The notes beneath the pieces are model-generated. The model was given only the letters and a program-made list of their open reading frames with translations. It was not told where the DNA came from and made no database searches. This document shows positions 4,928-54,507 of a stretch of DNA of 64,000 nucleotides, piece by piece; position 1 is the first letter of the stretch, and each line of letters opens with the position of its first letter. The DNA is from an uncultured Bacteroidota bacterium (GTDB taxonomy: Bacteria > Bacteroidota > Bacteroidia > 2-12-FULL-35-15), in the NCBI GenBank assembly GCA_903847205.1, contig CAINDA010000026.1:1-64000 (forward strand), written 5' to 3'. A program made the position numbers and the translations under genes.

Positions 4928-6133
4928 ATGAGTTCCGAAAACAGGTATAATTTACGAGGTGTATCCGCCTCAAAAGAAGATGTGCATAATGCGATTTCAA
5001 AAATTGACAAAGGCTTATTTCCTAAAGCGTTTTGTAAAGTAGTTCCTGATTATTTAACCGGAGATGAAAATTATTGCATTGTAATGCATGCTGACGGTGC
5101 GGGAACTAAATCTTCTTTAGCTTATATGTATTGGAAAGAAACTGGTGATGTGTCGGTATGGAAAAACATCGCCCAGGATGCAATTGTAATGAATACTGAT
5201 GATTTACTCTGCGTGGGAGCAATTGATAATATTTTACTCTCATCAACAATCGGCAGGAATAAAAACCTTATTTCTGCTGAAGTTATTTCTGCCATTATTA
5301 ATGGCACTGAAGAAACATTAGAACAAATGAGGAGTTATGGCATAGGCATATATTCAACCGGGGGCGAAACGGCTGATGTGGGGGATATTGTAAGAACAAT
5401 TATTGTTGACTCAACAGTTGTATGCCGGATGAAACGCAGCGATATTATTGATAATTCAAATATACAGGCAGGTGATGTTATTGTCGGCCTGGCATCAACC
5501 GGACAGGCTTCGTATGAAACAGAATACAACAGCGGAATGGGGAGTAATGGTTTGACATCAGCCCGTCATGATGTCTTTAAAAAATCATTGGCTTCTAAAT
5601 ATCCGGAAAGTTTTGACCCAGCTGTTCCTGAATCATTGATCTATAGCGGGAATACAGGCTTGACCGATAAAATAAATATTGAACTTAAATCAGAAATCAC
5701 AAATCCTGTATTGCAAATTTCAATTGATGCCGGGAAACTTGTTTTGTCGCCGACACGCTCTTATGCTCCAGTAATAAAAAAAATAATAGATCAGCATCGT
5801 TCTCAGATTCACGGGATGGTGCATTGCAGCGGAGGCGGACAGACCAAAGTGCTTCATTTTATTGATAATCTGCATGTGATAAAAGATAATTTATTTCCAG
5901 TGCCGCCTTTATTTAAATTAATCCAGTCGGAAAGCCAGACAGATTGGAAAGAAATGTATTCAGTTTTTAATATGGGACATAGAATGGAGCTCTATGTTCC
6001 TGAATCAATTGCCGGAGAAATTATTGCTGTTTCAAAATCATTTAATATTGATGCGCAAATTATCGGGAGGGTTGAGTCAGGAGCAACAAAACAATTAACA
6101 ATAAAATCCGAAAACGGTCTTTTTAAATACTAA
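4928..6133 (+). CDS. purM: phosphoribosylformylglycinamidine cyclo-ligase (AIR synthetase)
   Basis: PurM closes the imidazole ring in de novo purine synthesis, converting FGAM to AIR with ATP. The 401-residue protein shows the PurM/AIRS fold: N-terminal HADGAGTKSSLAYMYW (ATP and substrate loop), MNTDDLLCVGA and STGGETADVGDIV (acidic metal/phosphate sites), and a C-terminal AIRS_C half with SGGGQTKVLHF and MGHRMELYVP. It is longer than E. coli PurM (about 345), as in the Bacteroidota form. The ATG at 4928 lies ten bases after the terminator hairpin, so the promoter must lie inside or upstream of that hairpin. No other purine gene is nearby. Confidence 0.92.
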   Translation: MSSENRYNLRGVSASKEDVHNAISKIDKGLFPKAFCKVVPDYLTGDENYCIVMHADGAGTKSSLAYMYWKETGDVSVWKNIAQDAIVMNTDDLLCVGAIDNILLSSTIGRNKNLISAEVISAIINGTEETLEQMRSYGIGIYSTGGETADVGDIVRTIIVDSTVVCRMKRSDIIDNSNIQAGDVIVGLASTGQASYETEYNSGMGSNGLTSARHDVFKKSLASKYPESFDPAVPESLIYSGNTGLTDKINIELKSEITNPVLQISIDAGKLVLSPTRSYAPVIKKIIDQHRSQIHGMVHCSGGGQTKVLHFIDNLHVIKDNLFPVPPLFKLIQSESQTDWKEMYSVFNMGHRMELYVPESIAGEIIAVSKSFNIDAQIIGRVESGATKQLTIKSENGLFKY

Positions 6134-6167
6134 TAAAAAAAAATCACAAAAAAGTTAAAGCGGCATG

Positions 6168-6194
6168 AAATTCGCTTACATTTACAGCGAATTT
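6168..6194 (+). promoter_or_regulatory. perfect inverted repeat upstream of the Lys/Ala-rich gene
   Basis: AAATTCGC (6168-6175) and GCGAATTT (6187-6194) form a perfect eight-base inverted repeat with an 11-base spacer. The spacer contains TACATTTA, one base from the -7 consensus. The placement, 29 bases before the start codon at 6223, suggests an operator around a promoter. Confidence 0.35.
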
Positions 6195-6222
6195 AATCTC
6201 TAACTTTTTAAACTTATTTACA

Positions 6223-6450
6223 ATGAAAAAAACAATTACAGTTGTAGCATGCGCATTATTTGCAATGAGCACAGTATTAGGTACTGCTCAAACAGACAAA
6301 AAAGCTCCAGCAAAAAAAGAAGAAGCTAAAAAAGAAAGCGTAGCAGCAACTCCAGAAGCTGTACCAGCTAAAAAAGACGGTGCTAAAAAAGAAGCTCCTG
6401 CTAAAAAAGGTGCAAAAAAAGAAGCAAAAAAAGCTGACGAGAAAAAATAA
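6223..6450 (+). CDS. small exported Lys/Ala/Glu-rich protein
   Basis: A 75-residue protein with a clean signal peptide (residues 1-23, ending GTAQ). The mature part is a near-repetitive basic sequence of KKEAK, PAKK and KKE units, similar in composition to histone H1 tails. There is no cysteine and no folded domain. The gene has its own promoter-like region and a strong terminator, which argues that it is really expressed. Similar small secreted KA-rich proteins occur in Bacteroidota, with no assigned function that I know of. Binding to anionic envelope polymers or DNA is possible from charge alone. Confidence 0.75.
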   Translation: MKKTITVVACALFAMSTVLGTAQTDKKAPAKKEEAKKESVAATPEAVPAKKDGAKKEAPAKKGAKKEAKKADEKK

Positions 6451-6472
6451 TATTTAATAATATTATTTCATT

Positions 6473-6503
6473 AAAAAAAAGCCCTTCATTGGGCTTTTTT
6501 TTT
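6473..6503 (+). terminator. rho-independent terminator
   Basis: An A run, then GCCC (6481-6484) TTCATT GGGC (6491-6494), then nine T. It ends the Lys/Ala-rich gene. The rest of the gap to prfA (6504-6759) holds a TACCTTCG -7-like element at 6547-6554 and an 18-codon ATG-started frame at 6567-6623; nothing else was recognised. Confidence 0.85.
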
Positions 6504-6759
6504 GACCTGCGTTGATATTCTAATGTAAAGATGCCCGCTTTTTTTATACCTTCGCAAACGAAATAATGCAGGCAGACCAAGGAATAAATAAATTAAACAC
6601 TTATGAATACCAGGTGATTTGATTGATACATTTTCAAATTTTTGAATAATAAGTACAAACATTTAATTATAGAATAATCAAAAGTTTTTGCTTGTCCGCT
6701 ATGCTTAAAGAGACTTTACAATAATAAATTGGTATTCAAAATTAATAATCTAAAAAGAC

Positions 6760-7836
6760 GTGTTAGAAAAATTAGCAGCAATAAAAAGACGCTGGGAAGA
6801 AGTTGAACAGAAATTATCTGATCCCAAGGTAATTTCCAATATGCAGGAATTCAAAAAATTCAACAAGGAATATAAGGACTTAACAGGCGTTGTGGAGGCT
6901 TACCATAAATATAAAAACGTAGTTGAAAATATAGACTTTAATAAAAACATTTTATCGAATGAAAAGGACGATGAAATGCGGGAGATGGCTAAATTGGATT
7001 TGGAGGAGCTGCTTCCAAAGAAAGAACAGATTGAAGATGAAATCCGACAGATGCTTGTGCCTAAAGACCCCGAGGATGCCAAAAATGTTGTGATGGAAAT
7101 CCGGGCAGGCACCGGCGGAGATGAGGCAAGTATTTTTGCAGGGGATTTATACCGCATGTACACGCGATACTGCGAGAACAAAGGTTTAAAGCTTGATGTA
7201 GTTGATTTTAATGAAGGCACAATGGGCGGTTACAAAGAAATTATTTTTAATGTAACCGGTGAAAATGCCTATGGAATATTAAAGTTTGAAGGGGGGGTTC
7301 ACCGCGTGCAGCGTGTACCGAATACCGAAACGCAGGGAAGAGTTCATACTTCTGCTGCAACTGTGATGGTAATGCCGGAAGCAGATGAGGTGGACGTGGT
7401 CATCAATCCAGCTGATTTAGAAATTCAATTTGCGCGTTCAGGCGGAGCAGGCGGACAAAATGTAAATAAAGTAGAAACAAAAGTAATGCTGACGCATAAA
7501 CCTACTGGTATTGTTATTACTTGTCAGCAAGACCGTTCTCAGCTGGGAAACCGTGAAATAGCAATGAAAATGCTGCGGGCTAAATTATATGAAATTGAAC
7601 TGCAGAAACATTTAGACAGTGTTTCTAAAAGAAGGAAAACAATGGTTTCCACCGGCGACCGCTCGGAAAAGATACGTACATATAATTATTCTCAAAACCG
7701 CATCACCGACCACCGCATTAATCTAACACTATATAATTTGACTTTATTTATGGGCGGGGATATTCAGGAAATGCTGGACGGCCTTCAGTTAGCCGAAAAT
7801 GCTGAACGTTTAAAAGAAGGCGGAGTAGGGAATTAA
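6760..7836 (+). CDS. prfA: peptide chain release factor 1
   Basis: RF1 recognises UAA and UAG stop codons and triggers release of the finished peptide on the ribosome. The 358-residue length is standard. The universal GGQ motif is present ([13 protein letters not shown]), and the codon-recognition loop reads [18 protein letters not shown], whose P-N-T fits the RF1 PxT signature rather than RF2 SPF. The start codon is GTG at 6760 (reads as [11 protein letters not shown]), with no upstream in-frame ATG. The 250-base upstream gap makes a long leader possible. It is convergent with the PorE-like gene at 7.9 kb. Confidence 0.95.
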
Positions 7837-7880
7837 AATTTTTTGTGGATTAAATTACTCTTTCGAAATTGAAAAGCTGA

Positions 7881-45164: not shown

Positions 45165-48100
45165 TTATGCTGTCTGTTTTTCTAATACACCAGCCTTCTT
45201 CATTCCTTCCGGAACTGCCGAATCTTTATCTAAATCAATTACAATAGGTGTTGCTATACAAATGGATGAATAAGTACCGATTACAATACCTATTAACAGA
45301 GCAAAAGAGAATCCTCTTATAGTTTCGCCGCCGAAAATAAAGATGGCAAGCAATACAAAAAATATTGTTAACGATGTATTGATAGTCCGACTTAACGTAC
45401 TGTTCAATGCATAGTTGATTACTTTTACTTTTTCTGATTTATCTAATTCGGTTTTGTTACGCTCTGTTAAATATTCGCGGATTCTGTCAAACACTACTAC
45501 TGTATCTGTCATAGAGTAACTCATAACTGTTAAAATTGCAGCTATAAAGTCCTGTGTAATTTCCAATGAAAATGGCAGTATGCCGTCGAAAATTACAAAT
45601 ACTGAAAGTACAATCAACACATCATGGAATAAAGCGACTACCGCCCCCAGACCATAGGTCCATTTTTTGAATCGGATAAAGATAAAAAGAAACATCACAA
45701 GGCAGGATAACAATACCGCCCATACAGCTTTTGATCTTATATCGCGGGAAACCGTTTCACCCACCTTCTGAGAGCTCATGATTTCATACTTTGCGTTGAG
45801 CGTTTTTAAACCTTCGTTTAATTTAGCCTCTACTTTTCCTTCAGCATCTTCAGTGGCATCAGCAATTAAATAAGTAGTTGTGATACGCTGCTGTGTACTT
45901 TCGCCGTATGTTTTTACTTCGGGTGCTTCGCCAAAACTCAAGGTTAATGCTTTACGCACCTCTTCAGTTGGTTTTTCTCCGTCAAAACGCACAACATAAG
46001 AACGACCGCCTTTAAAATCAACTCCTAAACTAAAGCCGCCTTTATGTAAGTAAGAAAAAATACCTAATGCTATTATTAAACCTGAGAAAATATAATACAT
46101 TTTGCGCTTGCCGACAAAATCAATATTGATACTTTTGAAAGCATGGATGGTATATTTATTACCGAAAGGAATCTCCTGATTTTTATCCAGCCAGCGGTCG
46201 AAAACCAAACGGGTAATAAAAATTGCACAGAATAAAGACGACACAATACCAATGATTAAGGTAGTTGCAAAGCCTTGAAGCGGCCCTGTACCAAAAACAT
46301 ATAATATGATACCGAGTAATAAACCTGTTACGTGAGAGTCGATAACAGATGACATCGCATTCCTGTAGCCTTCTTTTATTGAAAGAGCGGTTGATTTGCC
46401 CAATGCTAATTCTTCCCGGACGCGTTCAAAAATAAGGATGTTCGCATCTACCGACATCGCTATTGTTAATACGATACCAGCAATCCCCGGTAATGTTAGC
46501 ACTGCGCCAAAGGAGGCGAGAATACCTATTACAAAAAAGTTATTGATAACCATTGCAAAATCTGCCACCCATCCGGCTTTGCTGTAATAGAAGCCCATAA
46601 AAAGAAGCACCATAACCAAAGCAATCATAAGGGAGATAAACCCTTTGCTAATAGCTTCCTGGCCAAGTGTAGGACCTACAACAGTTTCTTCAACAATACG
46701 AGCCGGAGCCGGAAGCTTACCTGCATTTAATATATTACATAAATCGCCTGCATCCTCAGGAGTAAAATTACCAGTGATAGAAGATGTTCCGTTAGGGATT
46801 TCGCCTAGAATATTTGGAGCAGAATATACATAGTTATCTAAAACAATTGCAATTCCTTTGCCAATGTTATCACGTGTCAAATGTTTCCAGGTAATTCCTG
46901 CATCAGCAGTCATTGTCATTTGAATAGATGAAAACCCGCCATGCTCCTGGTCTGTAAAAGGATGAGCATCAGTGATAATATCCCCAGACAATGGTGATTT
47001 CCCTCTTCCGCTTGTGCCGTTAATAGCATAAAGCTCTAATGAGGATTCTGATTTATCTTCTTTTGGAGATTTAAACGCCCATAAAAATTTAGTGTAGGGT
47101 TTAAAGATTGATTTTATTTTCGGGTTGTTCAGGAAACCGTTTATCTTAGCCGTATCTGAGATAGCGGCATATCCGATAATCGGCCCGTCTCTCAAAACTG
47201 TTTTTCCTTTTTCATCACGACCGATTGATGGGCCGAAAATTGAAAATAAAGGGTTGTCTCTTTTTGCTCTTGCAGCAGTATCGGCTTTGGTTTCTTTTCC
47301 TTTTTTAGCAATTTCGCCAGGGGTTTTGGATGTGCCTAACTGTGATGACAAGGATGATGAGGCGCTGTCTTTACCTGCAGCAGTTTTGTTTTTAGCAATA
47401 TCTTTTTTTGAAGTTTTATCATCTGCCAATTTACCGTCTGCATTAACAAAAGTCGAATCTGTTTTTGCACTGTCAGCAGCTGGAGTTAAAATTTCTTTTA
47501 AGCGGGTGTTTGCAATCTCCAGCAATGGGTAGATAATTTTGTTATCGTAAGTTTCCCAAAACTCTAAGTTAGCAGTGCCCTGTAATAATTTACGAACACG
47601 TTTTTTATCAGTAACACCGGGCAGCTCAATTAAAATACGGCCGGAAGAAGCCAGCTGCTGAATGTTAGGCTGTGTTACTCCGAATTTATCGATACGTGCG
47701 CGCAATGTAACTTTGGTAGTACCGATAGCGCTTTCTACTTTATCACGCAAAAATTTTAACACTGCATCATCCGGAGTATTAAAATCAATTTTGCCTTTCA
47801 ATTCAATTGTTTGAAAGTTGATTGCAAGTCTTGCATTCGGGTTGATCTTTCTGAACTCCTCGCCAAAAATGGTGACGAAATCTTTCGTATCTTTTTTCTG
47901 TCTTACCACAGCATTTGCAATTGCCTGATTAAAGGCTGGATCATTACTGTTGTTGGAAAGTGAACGGATAATATCCGGTATCGAAACTTCAAGAGTAACG
48001 TTCATCCCGCCTTTTAAATCGAGACCAAGATTTAACTGGCGTTTTTTAACATCATCATACGTGTATGATGTAATGAATATATCATATACCGGTCTTTTTC

Positions 48101-48344
48101 TCAAAGAATCCAGGTAAGAATTCTTTTTGGCTATGTGCTGAAAATCAATATATGTTTTTTGATCAACTGCATTCGGTGATTCTTTCTTTGATGCAGCAAT
48201 TACATCTGCCTGCCCAACATAGCTGTCGGCAAAAGCTTCGGCATCTTTTTCGATGCTGTGGGCAACCCAAGTAAACATTAAATAATAAGCACAGGCAAGT
48301 GACAGTAAAATTGCAAATAGCCTAATAGCACCTTTGTTTTGCAT
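45165..48344 (-). CDS. secDF: fused SecD-SecF protein translocase subunit
   Basis: SecDF uses the proton motive force to help complete Sec-dependent export across the inner membrane. This is the fused form, 1059 residues with twelve helices. The SecD half has NLGLDLKGGMNVTLEV, the periplasmic P1 domain, and the helix IAMSVDANILIFERVREEL with its conserved Asp. The SecF half has SLGVDFKGGRSYVVRF and SYSMTDTVVVFDRIREYL. Between P1 halves (about 285-345) lies a low-complexity insert rich in Lys, Ser, Thr and Asp. A lipoprotein version of the P1 region is encoded just upstream on the same strand. A good promoter lies at 48483-48513. Confidence 0.95.
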   Translation of the reverse strand: MQNKGAIRLFAILLSLACAYYLMFTWVAHSIEKDAEAFADSYVGQADVIAASKKESPNAVDQKTYIDFQHIAKKNSYLDSLRKRPVYDIFITSYTYDDVKKRQLNLGLDLKGGMNVTLEVSIPDIIRSLSNNSNDPAFNQAIANAVVRQKKDTKDFVTIFGEEFRKINPNARLAINFQTIELKGKIDFNTPDDAVLKFLRDKVESAIGTTKVTLRARIDKFGVTQPNIQQLASSGRILIELPGVTDKKRVRKLLQGTANLEFWETYDNKIIYPLLEIANTRLKEILTPAADSAKTDSTFVNADGKLADDKTSKKDIAKNKTAAGKDSASSSLSSQLGTSKTPGEIAKKGKETKADTAARAKRDNPLFSIFGPSIGRDEKGKTVLRDGPIIGYAAISDTAKINGFLNNPKIKSIFKPYTKFLWAFKSPKEDKSESSLELYAINGTSGRGKSPLSGDIITDAHPFTDQEHGGFSSIQMTMTADAGITWKHLTRDNIGKGIAIVLDNYVYSAPNILGEIPNGTSSITGNFTPEDAGDLCNILNAGKLPAPARIVEETVVGPTLGQEAISKGFISLMIALVMVLLFMGFYYSKAGWVADFAMVINNFFVIGILASFGAVLTLPGIAGIVLTIAMSVDANILIFERVREELALGKSTALSIKEGYRNAMSSVIDSHVTGLLLGIILYVFGTGPLQGFATTLIIGIVSSLFCAIFITRLVFDRWLDKNQEIPFGNKYTIHAFKSINIDFVGKRKMYYIFSGLIIALGIFSYLHKGGFSLGVDFKGGRSYVVRFDGEKPTEEVRKALTLSFGEAPEVKTYGESTQQRITTTYLIADATEDAEGKVEAKLNEGLKTLNAKYEIMSSQKVGETVSRDIRSKAVWAVLLSCLVMFLFIFIRFKKWTYGLGAVVALFHDVLIVLSVFVIFDGILPFSLEITQDFIAAILTVMSYSMTDTVVVFDRIREYLTERNKTELDKSEKVKVINYALNSTLSRTINTSLTIFFVLLAIFIFGGETIRGFSFALLIGIVIGTYSSICIATPIVIDLDKDSAVPEGMKKAGVLEKQTA

Positions 48345-48482: not shown

Positions 48483-48513
48483 CAAATATAGAATAACAAT
48501 TAATAATTACCAA
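48483..48513 (-). promoter_or_regulatory. secDF promoter
   Basis: On the minus strand TTG (48513-48511), 20 bases, then TATATTTG (48490-48483). The predicted leader to the start codon at 48344 is about 130 bases and includes the 23-bp repeat. Confidence 0.55.
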
Positions 48514-48609: not shown

Positions 48610-49944
48610 TCACTGCTTACCCAAGGGGGCAATGGCTTTCTCTTGTATAATTGAGAGCTTCACAGGCAGGCTGCCTGCATTTAAAAGATTTACAAAATCA
48701 TCGGTCTCCTCAACGGTGAAATTGCCGGATATTGAAGATGTTCCGCCTTTAATCTCGCCCTGTATTGTGGGAAATGAATATACTTTATCACCTATAACAA
48801 TGGCAATTGATTTCCCAATATTGTCTTTTGTTAAACGCTCCCATGTAAAAGAGGCCTCAGAAGTCATTTTAATAGAAACATAAGGAGTTGGGTTCTTTTT
48901 GAAAACTGTTTTATGAGCTTCAGTAATAATATCACCTGAAAGAGATCCCTTACCGTCTTCGTTTTTATCACGTACGGCTATAAGCTGGAGCGTTGTACCT
49001 TCTTTATCAACTGGTTTAAAAGACCATAAAAATTTAAGCTGCCGTTGTAAAACAGATCGGATCTCCGGTTTGTTTAAATAACTATTTATGACAGCTGTAT
49101 CAGAAATGGCGGCAAATCCGATTACGGGCCCGTTTCTTAAAGCATTTTTGCCGCTCCCATCGTTTTCGATTGAAGGAGAAAATACTGCAAAAAGCGGATT
49201 CTCTTTTTTTAGAGCTTTTAACGAATTATTTTTTACTGATTTAATTTTTGCCATTTGTTCCGTCAGGGACATTGTACTGTCAGTCTCAATGGTTTTATCT
49301 GCTTCATCAATCTTATCATCTTTACTTAAAATTTCTTTTAAACGGGTATTTACAGTCGCCAAAAATGGGTAAACATCTTTGTTTTCATAAGTTTCCCAAA
49401 ATTCAAGATTAGCTGAAGCCAGCAGTAATTCATGAAGCCTTAAGCTTTGCTTCATACCTGGCAGCTGCACCATCAAACGGCCCTCATTGCCCACACGCTG
49501 TATCACAGGATTTTCTATTCCGAATTTATCAACCCGCTTCAAAAGAATTTGTTTCAGCTTTTCCATCGTTTCATCAGTTTGATGCTGAATGAATTTCAAT
49601 AAGTCTGCAGAGGACGGATTTTCTTTTAATCCTTCAAATTTAAACCGGGAGGTCAATGAATTACCGGCATCATTTTTATACATCTCAGCAGTAAAAATTT
49701 CGGCGAAAGATTTTTCAGATGTGATTTTAATTTTTGCTGCATTTATTAATGCTATGTTTATTGCTGTATCGTTCTTATCGCTGCAGCGAGATCGGATTAT
49801 ATCCGCAATAGAAGCTTCTAAAATAAAACTCATACCGCCGTCGTTATTTATATCAGCTTTTCGCGGCGCATCAGAACAGCCGATAATGCCTGCTATGGCG
49901 ATTGACAATAAAAATAAACTGATCCTGTTTTTTATCTGAGTCAT
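48610..49944 (-). CDS. stand-alone SecD periplasmic-domain lipoprotein
   Basis: A 444-residue paralogue of only the periplasmic (P1) part of SecD. It starts with a lipoprotein signal peptide (MTQIKNRISLFLLSIAIAG, then IGC as lipobox cysteine), so it is tethered by lipid instead of by helix 1. The rest follows SecDF closely: GGMSFILEASIADIIRS, RVDKFGIENPVIQRVG, LMVQLPG, ANLEFWETYENKDVYPFL, a short charged linker (about 205-240), SFKPVDKEG and GTSSISGNFTVEETDDF. It stops at LPVKLSIIQEKAIAP, just where SecD enters its membrane helices, and has no proton-relay helices. The longest frame begins six codons earlier (49962). It lies upstream of secDF on the same strand with a separate promoter between them. 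It may assist SecDF or capture substrates; the function is inference. Confidence 0.85.
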   Translation of the reverse strand: MTQIKNRISLFLLSIAIAGIIGCSDAPRKADINNDGGMSFILEASIADIIRSRCSDKNDTAINIALINAAKIKITSEKSFAEIFTAEMYKNDAGNSLTSRFKFEGLKENPSSADLLKFIQHQTDETMEKLKQILLKRVDKFGIENPVIQRVGNEGRLMVQLPGMKQSLRLHELLLASANLEFWETYENKDVYPFLATVNTRLKEILSKDDKIDEADKTIETDSTMSLTEQMAKIKSVKNNSLKALKKENPLFAVFSPSIENDGSGKNALRNGPVIGFAAISDTAVINSYLNKPEIRSVLQRQLKFLWSFKPVDKEGTTLQLIAVRDKNEDGKGSLSGDIITEAHKTVFKKNPTPYVSIKMTSEASFTWERLTKDNIGKSIAIVIGDKVYSFPTIQGEIKGGTSSISGNFTVEETDDFVNLLNAGSLPVKLSIIQEKAIAPLGKQ

Positions 49945-50042
49945 CTGAAAATAGTTTATCAAATTTTATTTAACTGCTATGATAAATAATAATTTATGAT
50001 TTATCAATTTTAAAGTTATTAATTTGAAACACTTCTTCTTTC

Positions 50043-50097: not shown

Positions 50098-52383
50098 ATG
50101 AAATTATTTCGTTGGTTTGTCTTTTTTTATATATCATTACTGACTTGTGTTGCATCCGCACAGCCCTATTTTATACGTAACGACAGTATCCCTGTAAAAA
50201 TAAACGGAAGCTATATAACCAATCCCTGGGCTGGAGGCATAAACTTTATTCAGGCATCTGAAATTGATTTGAACCAGGACGGTATTAAAGACCTTTTTAT
50301 TTTCGACCGAACCGGAAACAAAATACGCACCTTTATAAATAACGGAACGGCTAATAATGTTGATTACAGATACGCGCCGCAATACGAAAGTAAATTCCCT
50401 AATTTGCACGACTGGGCTTTGCTGCGTGATTATAACTGCGACGGCAAAGAAGATATTTTCAGCTACTCCGGCGGCGGATTTGCGGTTTACAAAAACACTT
50501 CAAGTATAGCCAACGGACTGCAATTTACTTTAGTTACTCCTCTGCAGTATTCCATGTATTACCCGCCCTCCGTCACTACCATATATAATTTATATATAAG
50601 CTCTGTGGATATCCCGGCAATTACAGATATTGACGGGGATGGTGATTTGGATATAATCACATTCGGAATCCTAGGAACCTATTTAGAATACCACCAAAAT
50701 CAAAGCATGGAGCTTTACGGAAGCTGCGACAGTTTAAAATTTCAAATAAAAAATAACTGCTGGGGCTTTGCAGCTGAAAGTCCATATACTAATATTTTTA
50801 CACTGCATGATACCTGCTCCGGAAATATTGCTAACCCCGGATTAGCGATTGACACAATTGCTGCAGGAGGTGTACGCAGTGCCGACAGGCATTCAGGCTC
50901 CTGCGAATTATGTCTGGATTTAAACGGCGACGGTGACAAAGATTTGGTTGTAGGCGGTGTTTCATACAATAACCTTACTGCTGTGACTAATGGCGGCAGC
51001 CCATTATTGGCAAACATGACAGCAGTTGATCCTGCATTTCCTTCGCATGATAGCAGCACAACTGCAGTTAATATGACGCTTTTTCCCTGTGCCTATTATC
51101 TGGATGTTAACAATGACGGTAAAAAAGATCTGCTTGTCAGTCCCAATGCACCCAATGTTTCTGAAAACTTTAACAGTTTGATTTATTATAAAAATATCGG
51201 CACTTCTTCTTATCCTGTTTTTCAATTTCAACAGTCGAATTTATTGCAGGATAATATGATTGAAGTCGGCGAAGGAGCTTACCCCGTTTTATTCGATTAT
51301 GATAATGACGGTTTGAAAGATTTGTTTGTTGGCAATTACGGATACTTCAACACACCAAACTACACCCATCAAATAGCTCAGTTCAGAAATACCGGCACTG
51401 CATCAAACCCTCAATTTGAGCTTATAACGCGTGATTACGCAAATCTCAGTTCATTAGGAATCGCCAATATGATGCCCGCCTTCGGCGATTTAGACGGCGA
51501 TGGCGATGCCGACATGATAATAGGCGGTTTGGATGGAAAGCTTCAGTATTTCGAAAACAATGCGCCTATCGGCAGTCCGGCTAATTTTGTTTTATCTCAG
51601 GCTAATTTTAAAAACTCTTTCAACCATCCCATTGACATAGGTGATTGTGCCGCCCCTCAGATTGTGGATGTTGATAATGACGGCAAAAATGATTTAGTGA
51701 TAGGCGGGAGGAATGGAAAAATTACCTATTATCACCATACAGGAATTGGTACGGAGCATGTACCTGTAATGGATTCGGTTACTAATTATTGGGGTGATGT
51801 TAAAGTAACTCAATATGGATATACAACCGGATACAGCACTCCTTTTGTATTTAAACAAAGCGGTGTCACAAAATTATTAGCCGGCTCTGAAGAAGGACAC
51901 CTGCGCTTGTATGGCAATATTGACGGTAATTTAAACGGCAGCTTTACTATGCTGGATTCTGTGTATCTGAATATTTACGAAGGTACCCGCACCGCTTTAA
52001 CCGGTGCAGATATAACCAATGATGGATACATGGATCTGATAATCGGCAATTATGCGGGCGGTGTTTCTTATTACAAAGGGTGTTCAACTATTCTATCAAT
52101 AAATAATATTGATAATTCTGTTCACTGGCATTTTGATTTGTTCCCTAACCCCGCGGATAATACTGTAAACGTAAAAATCCAAATGGATAACAACAATGCT
52201 TATACGCTTGATCTATATACCATCATGGGGCAGCTGGTAATGTCTCAGAAAATAATTAATAATACGGCAGTACTCCGCACCGGAAATTTATCGCAGGGGA
52301 TTTATATCTGCAAAGTATCTGAAATAAATAATTCAGGCAATAAGATTAACTCTTTGGTAAAGCGCATTGTTATACAGCATTAA
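50098..52383 (+). CDS. FG-GAP/VCBS repeat protein with type A T9SS sorting domain
   Basis: A 761-residue exported protein. A signal peptide (1-20, ending ASA) is followed by about nine FG-GAP/VCBS repeats, each with a calcium-binding DxDxDGxxD-type loop, e.g. DLNQDGIKDLFIF, DIDGDGDLDIITFG, DLDGDGDADMIIGG and DVDNDGKNDLVIGG. Together these form a seven- to nine-bladed beta propeller. The C-terminus (from about 675) is a type A T9SS CTD: FDLFPNPADNTVNV, YTIMGQLVMS, QGIYICKV, KRIVIQH. The protein is most likely displayed on the cell surface. It probably shares a transcript with the PHB-depolymerase-like gene, which begins 30 bases later. Confidence 0.9.
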   Translation: MKLFRWFVFFYISLLTCVASAQPYFIRNDSIPVKINGSYITNPWAGGINFIQASEIDLNQDGIKDLFIFDRTGNKIRTFINNGTANNVDYRYAPQYESKFPNLHDWALLRDYNCDGKEDIFSYSGGGFAVYKNTSSIANGLQFTLVTPLQYSMYYPPSVTTIYNLYISSVDIPAITDIDGDGDLDIITFGILGTYLEYHQNQSMELYGSCDSLKFQIKNNCWGFAAESPYTNIFTLHDTCSGNIANPGLAIDTIAAGGVRSADRHSGSCELCLDLNGDGDKDLVVGGVSYNNLTAVTNGGSPLLANMTAVDPAFPSHDSSTTAVNMTLFPCAYYLDVNNDGKKDLLVSPNAPNVSENFNSLIYYKNIGTSSYPVFQFQQSNLLQDNMIEVGEGAYPVLFDYDNDGLKDLFVGNYGYFNTPNYTHQIAQFRNTGTASNPQFELITRDYANLSSLGIANMMPAFGDLDGDGDADMIIGGLDGKLQYFENNAPIGSPANFVLSQANFKNSFNHPIDIGDCAAPQIVDVDNDGKNDLVIGGRNGKITYYHHTGIGTEHVPVMDSVTNYWGDVKVTQYGYTTGYSTPFVFKQSGVTKLLAGSEEGHLRLYGNIDGNLNGSFTMLDSVYLNIYEGTRTALTGADITNDGYMDLIIGNYAGGVSYYKGCSTILSINNIDNSVHWHFDLFPNPADNTVNVKIQMDNNNAYTLDLYTIMGQLVMSQKIINNTAVLRTGNLSQGIYICKVSEINNSGNKINSLVKRIVIQH

Positions 52384-52413
52384 AAGAATATTTTTTATAT
52401 CTATCCAATTTAA

Positions 52414-54507
52414 ATGAAAATATTAAATACCCTTACAGCAGTAGTCTCAGCTGGATTAATAAGCACAAATATACTGTCGCAGTCTTTAACACCGGTTTCT
52501 TCTTTTGGCAGCAACCCCGGAAGTTTGAATATGTACACCTACGTTCCTACGGGAATCAGCAGTCCGGCAGCATTGGTTGTTGCCATGCATGGCTGTACCG
52601 AAACAGCAGCGATATATGCAGCACAGTCGGGCTGGGATAAACTGGCGGACAGGCATAAATTTTATATGGTTTATCCTGAGCAGATAAGTGCTAATAACAG
52701 CAGTATGTGCTTTAATTGGTTTGATGCAACGGATCAAAGCAGAAGCCAGGGAGAGGCTTTATCCATCAAACAAATGGTGGATTATATGAAATCCCATTAC
52801 AGTATTGATACAACAAAAATTTTTGTTACAGGTTTATCTGCCGGGGCAGGAATGACAAGCGTGATGCTGGCAGCATACCCTGAAATATTTAACAAAGGCG
52901 CCATCATGGCCGGACTGCCTTATAAAGCTGCCACTTCCAGCGCAACAGCCGGAAACGCCATGTATGGATGGGTTACCAAAACACCTGCGCAATGGAGTGC
53001 TCTGGTGAAAAATGAAAACCCTTCTTATACAGGGCCTTTCCCTCATGCTGCAATATTCCACGGCACTTCTGATCTGGTAGTAAATATTAATAATGCAACG
53101 GAACTTATTAAGCAGTGGACAGATTTAAACAACGCAGATCAAACGGCGGACAGTACCAATACATCATTTCAGGGCAATTCACTTGTTGAGGAAACAATTT
53201 ATAATGACAACGCAAACAAACCTGTTGTATATTATTATAAAATAACCAGCATGGGCCATGGTATTTCTCTTGATACAGGAAGCTGTCCCAGACAAGGCGG
53301 TACCACAGGAACCTATGCGCTCGAAGAGCATTTTAATTCGACCTACCAGGCTGCGCACTTTTTTAATATTCTAAAAAATCCATATTCTATTACAGGTGCA
53401 ATACAGGTTAATGAAAATGCGACTAACGTAACTTACAGCGTGGTTAATACTGCTGGTTCAACTTATTCATGGGCGGTGCCTGCGGGAGCTATTATTGCGG
53501 GCGGGCAGGGGACACATTCAATAACAGTTAATTTTGCTACTGCCAGCGGGAATGTAACGGTGCAAGAAACAACCGGTGCCGGCTGTAAAAACGATATTGC
53601 TTCATTGTATGTTACGGTTCAGTTTAATGTTTCTGTTTCTCAGACATCGTATCTGCTCTGTCATAATTCATCTTCTGGAGCAGCACTTGCCGTTGCTGCC
53701 TCGGGCGGAACAGGGCCTTATACTTACTCCTGGTCGCCAAGCGGAGGGACGAACATAACCGCGAGCGGGCTGGCTGCAGGTGTTTATACGGTTACCGTTA
53801 CAGATCATGCAAATGTTGTTGTTGCTTCTTCGGGTTTTACTGTCACACCTCCGGCCCTGATTACGGCGAGTCAAACACGAACTCTTTGTGCCGGACAGTC
53901 AATAAATGTAGGATCACATACATATAATTCAAGCAATACTTATACTGATACTTTATCTGCTTTGAACAGCTGCGACAGCGTATTAACAACCCATTTGACT
54001 GTTTACCCTTTAACGCCGGTTTCATTGAGCATATCCGGAAACGACTCACTCTGCAGTGCAGCCAGTGCTTTTGTTTTATCCGGCGGAAGCCCGTCAGGAG
54101 GGGTTTACAGCGGGGCAGGTATTAGCAGCGGAAACTTCAATCCTGCTGGGGCAAATATCGGATGGGATGCTGTTACCTATACTTTTATTGATGCAAATAA
54201 TTGTCCCGGTACAGCTAAAGACTCCATCTATATCAGCAATTGTATCACTACAGGCTTAACAGATTCTGAGGTTTCAAAAAACATTCGCATTTATCCTAAT
54301 CCCGCTGCAGGTGCTGTTAACATAGCTATTGACGGCGGTATTCTTTTGGAAGTGAAAATTTATAACAGTGCAGGAGCATTGGTTTTAGTAAAACAATTTA
54401 ACCGCAATAAAGCTGAATTAGATATTCATACACTGCCGGAGGGCTTGTATTTATTGAACCTGAAAACTGACAAGGGAATTATTACACGGAACATTCTGAA
54501 ACAATAA
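52414..54507 (+). CDS. PHB-depolymerase-family esterase with type A T9SS sorting domain
   Basis: A 697-residue secreted enzyme. After the signal peptide (1-23) comes an alpha/beta-hydrolase domain of the PHB depolymerase/LpqC family (30-320): oxyanion region VVAMHGCTETA, nucleophile serine in FVTGLSAGAGMTS, aspartate in HGTSDLVVN and histidine in MGHGISLDTG. PKD/Ig-like domains occupy about 325-600, and a type A CTD ends the protein (RIYPNPAAGAVNIAI, EGLYLLNL). The family includes polyhydroxybutyrate depolymerases and feruloyl or acetyl-xylan esterases; the sequence alone does not settle the substrate. It is exported through the outer membrane by T9SS, probably with the FG-GAP protein upstream. 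Confidence 0.88.
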   Translation: MKILNTLTAVVSAGLISTNILSQSLTPVSSFGSNPGSLNMYTYVPTGISSPAALVVAMHGCTETAAIYAAQSGWDKLADRHKFYMVYPEQISANNSSMCFNWFDATDQSRSQGEALSIKQMVDYMKSHYSIDTTKIFVTGLSAGAGMTSVMLAAYPEIFNKGAIMAGLPYKAATSSATAGNAMYGWVTKTPAQWSALVKNENPSYTGPFPHAAIFHGTSDLVVNINNATELIKQWTDLNNADQTADSTNTSFQGNSLVEETIYNDNANKPVVYYYKITSMGHGISLDTGSCPRQGGTTGTYALEEHFNSTYQAAHFFNILKNPYSITGAIQVNENATNVTYSVVNTAGSTYSWAVPAGAIIAGGQGTHSITVNFATASGNVTVQETTGAGCKNDIASLYVTVQFNVSVSQTSYLLCHNSSSGAALAVAASGGTGPYTYSWSPSGGTNITASGLAAGVYTVTVTDHANVVVASSGFTVTPPALITASQTRTLCAGQSINVGSHTYNSSNTYTDTLSALNSCDSVLTTHLTVYPLTPVSLSISGNDSLCSAASAFVLSGGSPSGGVYSGAGISSGNFNPAGANIGWDAVTYTFIDANNCPGTAKDSIYISNCITTGLTDSEVSKNIRIYPNPAAGAVNIAIDGGILLEVKIYNSAGALVLVKQFNRNKAELDIHTLPEGLYLLNLKTDKGIITRNILKQ

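Follow-up and report, generated by a model that had tools for sequence, protein, structure and literature searches.

Some Bacteroidia carry a recurrent gene whose product, judged from its sequence, is a complete SecD P1 region (base, linker and head) in which a predicted lipid anchor takes the place of the membrane helices. We describe this protein, hereafter the solo, from a window of 64,000 nucleotides of an uncultured Bacteroidota bacterium, where its gene lies beside a complete fused secDF (Table 1). The SecD P1 domain itself is already known; of the recurrent family of stand-alone lipidated SecD P1 proteins, no description was found in the open-access literature that we searched. The family bears on how the P1 domain of SecDF works, and on whether it does no more than pull chains or passes them on to chaperones and BAM as well. 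In the Bacteroidia solos, P1 has been parted from the proton-driven motor in many lineages while apparently still tethered to a membrane, which provides a clean passive P1 for tests.

Table 1. Features of the solo gene and its neighborhood in the window
Feature	Positions	Strand	Extent or basis
Solo SecD-P1 lipoprotein gene (putative)	48610..49944	-	444 aa from ATG 49944; 450 aa if TTG 49962 (ORF 48610-49962)
Predicted type II signal peptide (residues 1-22) and lipidation Cys23 of the solo	49876..49944	-	Sequence; Cys invariant in 18/18 solos
P1 N-terminal half of the solo (residues 35-212): D1-like DGG strand, SecD_1st, LEFWETYEN	49309..49842	-	Pfam PF21760
Short disordered inter-half linker of the solo (residues 213-248)	49201..49308	-	Low pLDDT, SecDF alignment
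Second P1 half of the solo (residues 250-434), including P1 head (337-434)	48643..49197	-	Pfam PF22599
Complete fused SecDF, paralogue of the solo	45165..48344	-	1059 aa
secDF promoter, conserved Bacteroidota-type (TTG-N20-TATATTTG), between solo gene and secDF	48483..48513	-	Relatives with and without solo
Divergent gene with T9SS type A sorting tail, ancestral neighbor of secDF	50098..52383	+	Cargo also adjoins secDF in relatives

Domain make-up and predicted fold

The likely start of the gene is the ATG at 49944 rather than the TTG at 49962. From this ATG, the protein opens with MTQIKNRISLFLLSIAIAGIIG, followed by CSDAPRK. Its N-terminus, MTQIKNRISLFLLSIAIAGIIG and then CSDAPRKADINNDGG, reads as a type II signal, a tether of about 12 residues and a DGG strand that is the counterpart of the SecD D1 motif. 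Both an N-terminal signal and a lipobox Cys, the marks of a lipoprotein, are thus predicted, and the proposal of the sequence-only reading that a lipobox replaces helix 1 stands: the signal peptide with Cys23 and the short tether stand where SecDF has its first helix and the greater part of the stretch between that helix and D1. Pfam recognizes SecD_1st (PF21760, 1.6e-13) and SecDF_P1_head (PF22599, 5.3e-25) in the solo, while no transmembrane SecD/F model, PF02355 included, matches it. The protein falls below the NCBIfam cut-offs for secD and secDF (329 of 1037 bits for PRK13024.1-5; 138 of 244 bits for TIGR01129), and the NCBIfam search gave no match to a Por secretion tail. The description of the solo as only the head of SecD was right in that the periplasmic part of SecD stands alone, but P1 has been kept in full, with its base as well as its head.

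Structure prediction points the same way. The AlphaFold2 model, built on an alignment of 41 P1 homologues, all from fused SecDFs except one solo (L047), has a mean pLDDT of 81; values mostly exceed 85 in residues 35-212, and only the signal peptide and the linker are modeled with low confidence (for the linker, below 50 at 213-228 and 230-238). When the model was compared with the PDB by Foldseek, each of the nine matches below 1e-3 was a SecDF, and among the best was the P1 domain of Thermus SecDF on its own (PDB 3aqo; TM-score to target, 0.65-0.73). Whereas 3aqo is an experimental fragment, the solo would be a natural lipid-anchored protein. The assignment is also backed by sequence search, and the agreement of Pfam, AlphaFold2 and Foldseek indicates that the predicted fold of the solo is that of SecD P1.

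The solo aligns with residues 112-563 of the SecDF of the window at 41% identity (BLASTP, E 8e-101) and, as had been noticed, keeps the P1 motifs in the SecDF order. It shares with SecD and fused SecDF (TIGR01129 and PRK13024; PF21760 plus PF22599) the whole P1, the LEFWETYEN motif, the head fold and most head invariants, but it lacks the transmembrane helices, SecF, P4 and the GPTLG hinge segment, has a probably lipidated N-terminus and is encoded by a separate gene. Its C-terminus comes just short of GPTLG, the SecDF segment that runs from P1 into the next membrane helix, so the protein does stop before the proton-relay helices. The linker between the P1 halves had been called shortened and charged. 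It is indeed about 35 aa shorter than that of SecDF, but charge does not distinguish it, because the SecDF linker is, by eye, about as rich in D/E/K. A split SecD, with a membrane half encoded elsewhere, was sought by a genome-wide scan and rejected: PF02355 (SecD_SecF_C) was found only in the fused SecDF and in two long RND-type proteins, and the P1 head was confined to the solo and SecDF.

Distribution

Within the genus, the solo is present in 8 of 36 genomes (G000, G003, G016, G017, G020, G023, G025 and G028; that of G017 sits on JAHEYB010000023). Among 296 Bacteroidia genomes of at least 90% completeness, at least 12 encode an intact lipoprotein solo (including G000, G016, G025, G078, G105, G136, G163, G174, G189, G233, G289 and G295), a minimum, since scoring was limited to the top five candidates of each genome and used a strict cut-off. 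Counting G053 (84% complete) with these genomes, nine families hold solos. The search for stand-alone relatives thus shows a recurrent gene, which lies directly upstream of secDF in only three genomes. Its patchy spread (8/36 genomes of the genus and about 4% of those of the class) implies that it is dispensable. A contig search with the solo protein returned mainly fused SecDFs, L047 being the single solo.

Two solos each are found in G105, G233 and G295. Tandem divergent pairs occur at L193 (G295, 5436-7855 (-)) and L185 (G233, 5549-7566 (+)), the former possibly adjoined by a third short lipoprotein. Broken, short or non-lipidated forms were seen in G086, G145, G082, G188 and G106. In G086, an in-frame TAG interrupts the solo frame (L195, 5634-6752 (-)), which marks either a pseudogene or an assembly error, and the frame of G145 is fragmentary. 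Secreted proteins made of the P1 head only, with no evident lipobox, are encoded in G188 (L196, 5943-6776 (-)) and G106 (L181, 1285-2169 (+)), the latter with an extra C-terminal domain after the head.

No full-length solo was found outside Bacteroidia in a phylum sample of 118 genomes, in which the matches from outside the class were mostly split SecDs of about 600-700 aa; apart from fragments of the P1 head in G330 and G346 (152-175 aa), all were of SecD or SecDF length. A search of plasmids for solos matched only SecD/SecDF or unannotated proteins.

Selection, conservation and origin

The frames of all 18 full-length relatives are intact. Approximate NG86 estimates of dN/dS for the solo are 0.25 between the window and G023 (dS 1.33, near saturation) and 0.21 between G016 and G025 (dS 0.86), compared with 0.12 (likewise approximate) for the P1 of SecDF between the window and G023. 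These ratios show that purifying selection acts on the solo, though about twice as loosely as on SecDF P1. That it might be a decaying copy, the outcome that would have undermined the sequence-only reading, is not what these values indicate.

Across the 18 solos, only the lipidation Cys and Arg137 are invariant. As a reference for residue retention, we used the 85 positions that are near-invariant in 132 SecDFs. In the solo of the window, 9/9 of these residues in the middle part and 20/25 of those in the head are retained; for the N-terminal half (to residue 212), the figure is 28/45, and five of the 45 fall in the lost LGLDL segment (30-34). Among the conserved residues of the head are N375, P392, I398 and G401-G407. 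The best-preserved SecDF invariants are those of the head; LGLDL and GPTLG, which border the SecD membrane helices, are lost in most solos. Such a pattern would be expected if the function of the head had been kept and membrane coupling given up. In the most divergent solos (G105, G136 and G233), just 10-13 of the 25 head positions are retained, which suggests altered or several functions.

The separate evolution of the solo, first surmised from its linker, is borne out by its relatives in other genera and families and by the trees, in which most solos group apart from SecDFs. In a tree of 89 rows, 15 of 17 solos stand apart from SecDFs. A recent copy of the adjacent secDF was rejected, as the solo of the window groups with other solos and the SecDF of the window is nested in the SecDF clade of the genus. 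In a smaller tree, the data are compatible with 11 solos as a single clade (AU p 0.57) and also with the clade of the window solo joined to the SecDFs of the genus (p 0.19). Both a single old origin and several independent ones may thus fit, and long branches may draw the solos together.

The secDF locus

In the window, G023 and G020, the gene order is a divergent T9SS-cargo gene, the solo and secDF, the last two on the same strand. Most solos lie elsewhere, in unrelated contexts and without linkage to secDF, BAM or chaperone genes. In eleven genomes with no solo at this locus, the cargo gene directly abuts secDF (G013, G025, G033, G016, G010, G009, G003, G035, G028, G022 and G002). A promoter-like 31-base element (TTGG...TATATTTG) is nearly identical 5' of secDF in most genus members examined, whether a solo is present or not. 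This adjacency and the conserved promoter place the solo in an old cargo-secDF gap, upstream of the secDF promoter. Among near relatives, presence and absence of the solo at the locus alternate. A solo-secDF operon was rejected, the conserved promoter standing between the two genes; the stretch immediately 5' of the solo showed no -33/-7 element. The 31-base element is, as a separate observation, unusually conserved for a promoter.

As one example of a role at the outer membrane, the sequence-only reading had suggested that the solo might feed cargo to the T9SS. Since the cargo gene adjoins secDF where the solo is missing, it belongs to the secDF locus and not to the solo; with at least 150 T9SS sorting tails in the genome, its adjacency carries little weight, and a special T9SS link is not supported by these data or by the position of most solos, which lie elsewhere. 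Two T9SS type A cargo genes, one for a repeat protein and one for a PHB-depolymerase-like esterase, lie next to secDF in the window (50098-54507 (+)), and at least the first is kept beside secDF in many genus members. At the solo loci of G016 and G025, a small conserved protein (MK-RSRRKLFFPVGLISL...) adjoins the solo (L042, 4285-4788 (-); L043, 4954-5223 (+)).

Possible function

The reading that we favor, at somewhat short of an even chance, is that the solo is a SecD paralogue cut down to P1, lipid-anchored and facing the periplasm, which acts as a passive docking lipoprotein for polypeptides or chaperones. Without helices, it is not proton-driven and could not pull substrates by itself. 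Surface lipoproteins of Bacteroidota carry an acidic export signal (LES) just after the Cys (PMC5080379), a motif that may not be the sorting rule of this genus; in 17 of 18 solos, at most one acidic residue occurs at +2 to +6 after the Cys (CSDAPRK in the window), so that surface export is unlikely and a periplasm-facing position the most likely one. The solo would thus face the periplasm, most probably from the outer membrane. The P1 head of SecD contains a substrate-binding cavity and contacts PpiD (PMC11470409), and a SurA site on it has been predicted by AlphaFold (PMC9987972). The solo may passively bind exported polypeptides, as they emerge or while unfolded, or else those chaperones for which SecDF P1 is a docking site; in this way, it would serve as an accessory holdase or docking site backing SecDF or outer-membrane delivery. 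SecDF and BAM are in contact across the periplasm, and the proton-driven movement of SecDF affects the maturation of outer membrane proteins (PMC8669966). A more specific proposal, which we regard as unlikely, is that a family of SecD P1 domains in the outer membrane of Bacteroidia gives the Sec holo-translocon a second docking station, which takes nascent chains or SurA from SecDF and passes them to BAM with no proton coupling.

Other roles can be conceived for a protein that shares its domain with SecDF P1. It may regulate or compete with SecDF, either by titrating P1 partners (chaperones, nascent chains, SecYEG/YidC contacts) or by pairing with SecDF, and so tune the activity of SecDF without extending it. 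Retention of most SecDF head invariants and a position directly upstream of secDF on the same strand in three genomes agree with such a role; since most solos are unlinked to secDF, which moreover has its own conserved promoter 3' of the solo, we consider it rather unlikely. Reuse of the P1 head as a scaffold for another envelope ligand, the link with Sec being gone, would suit the unlinked genomic positions and the divergent solos, which retain few head residues and have lost much of the base, but the clade of the window keeps 29 of the 34 SecDF-invariant residues of the middle part and head, and we hold this reading to be unlikely. The solo may also be a decoy or immunity lipoprotein, shielding SecDF against a P1-binding toxin, phage or competitor factor. 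A putatively lipidated copy of a housekeeping domain that is patchy, evolves faster than SecDF, occupies several loci and, in G233, G295 and G105, occurs in tandem or more than once per genome has the look of one. However, toxin or defense genes were not seen, by eye, beside the solos examined, and we know of no agent that targets SecDF P1 in Bacteroidota, making this a poor prospect.

Two further readings fare worse. A T9SS accessory, relaying cargo between Sec and the type IX machinery, would suit a genome rich in T9SS cargo and a divergent neighbor that is itself a cargo gene; besides the considerations given above for the locus, the solo is missing from most members of the genus, and we hold this role to be highly improbable. 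That the solo is a non-functional duplicate heading for loss is the least probable of all: its absence from many close relatives, a rate of evolution about twice that of SecDF P1 and the damaged frames of G086 and G145 speak for it, yet the 18 intact full-length lipoprotein homologues, with dN/dS well below 1 and an invariant lipidation Cys, largely refute it.

For the favored passive docking lipoprotein, the nearest functional counterparts would be the periplasmic export helpers PpiD/YfgM and SurA, which meet SecD P1 and with which it may share the tethered or soluble handling of emerging chains; their folds are unlike that of the solo, and the likeness is one of proposed function only. A parallel in design is TamL, the TamA-like lipoprotein of Bacteroidota (PMC12045153), also a component of an envelope machine recast as a lipoprotein. 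TamL, however, replaces TamA, whereas the solo comes in addition to an intact SecDF.
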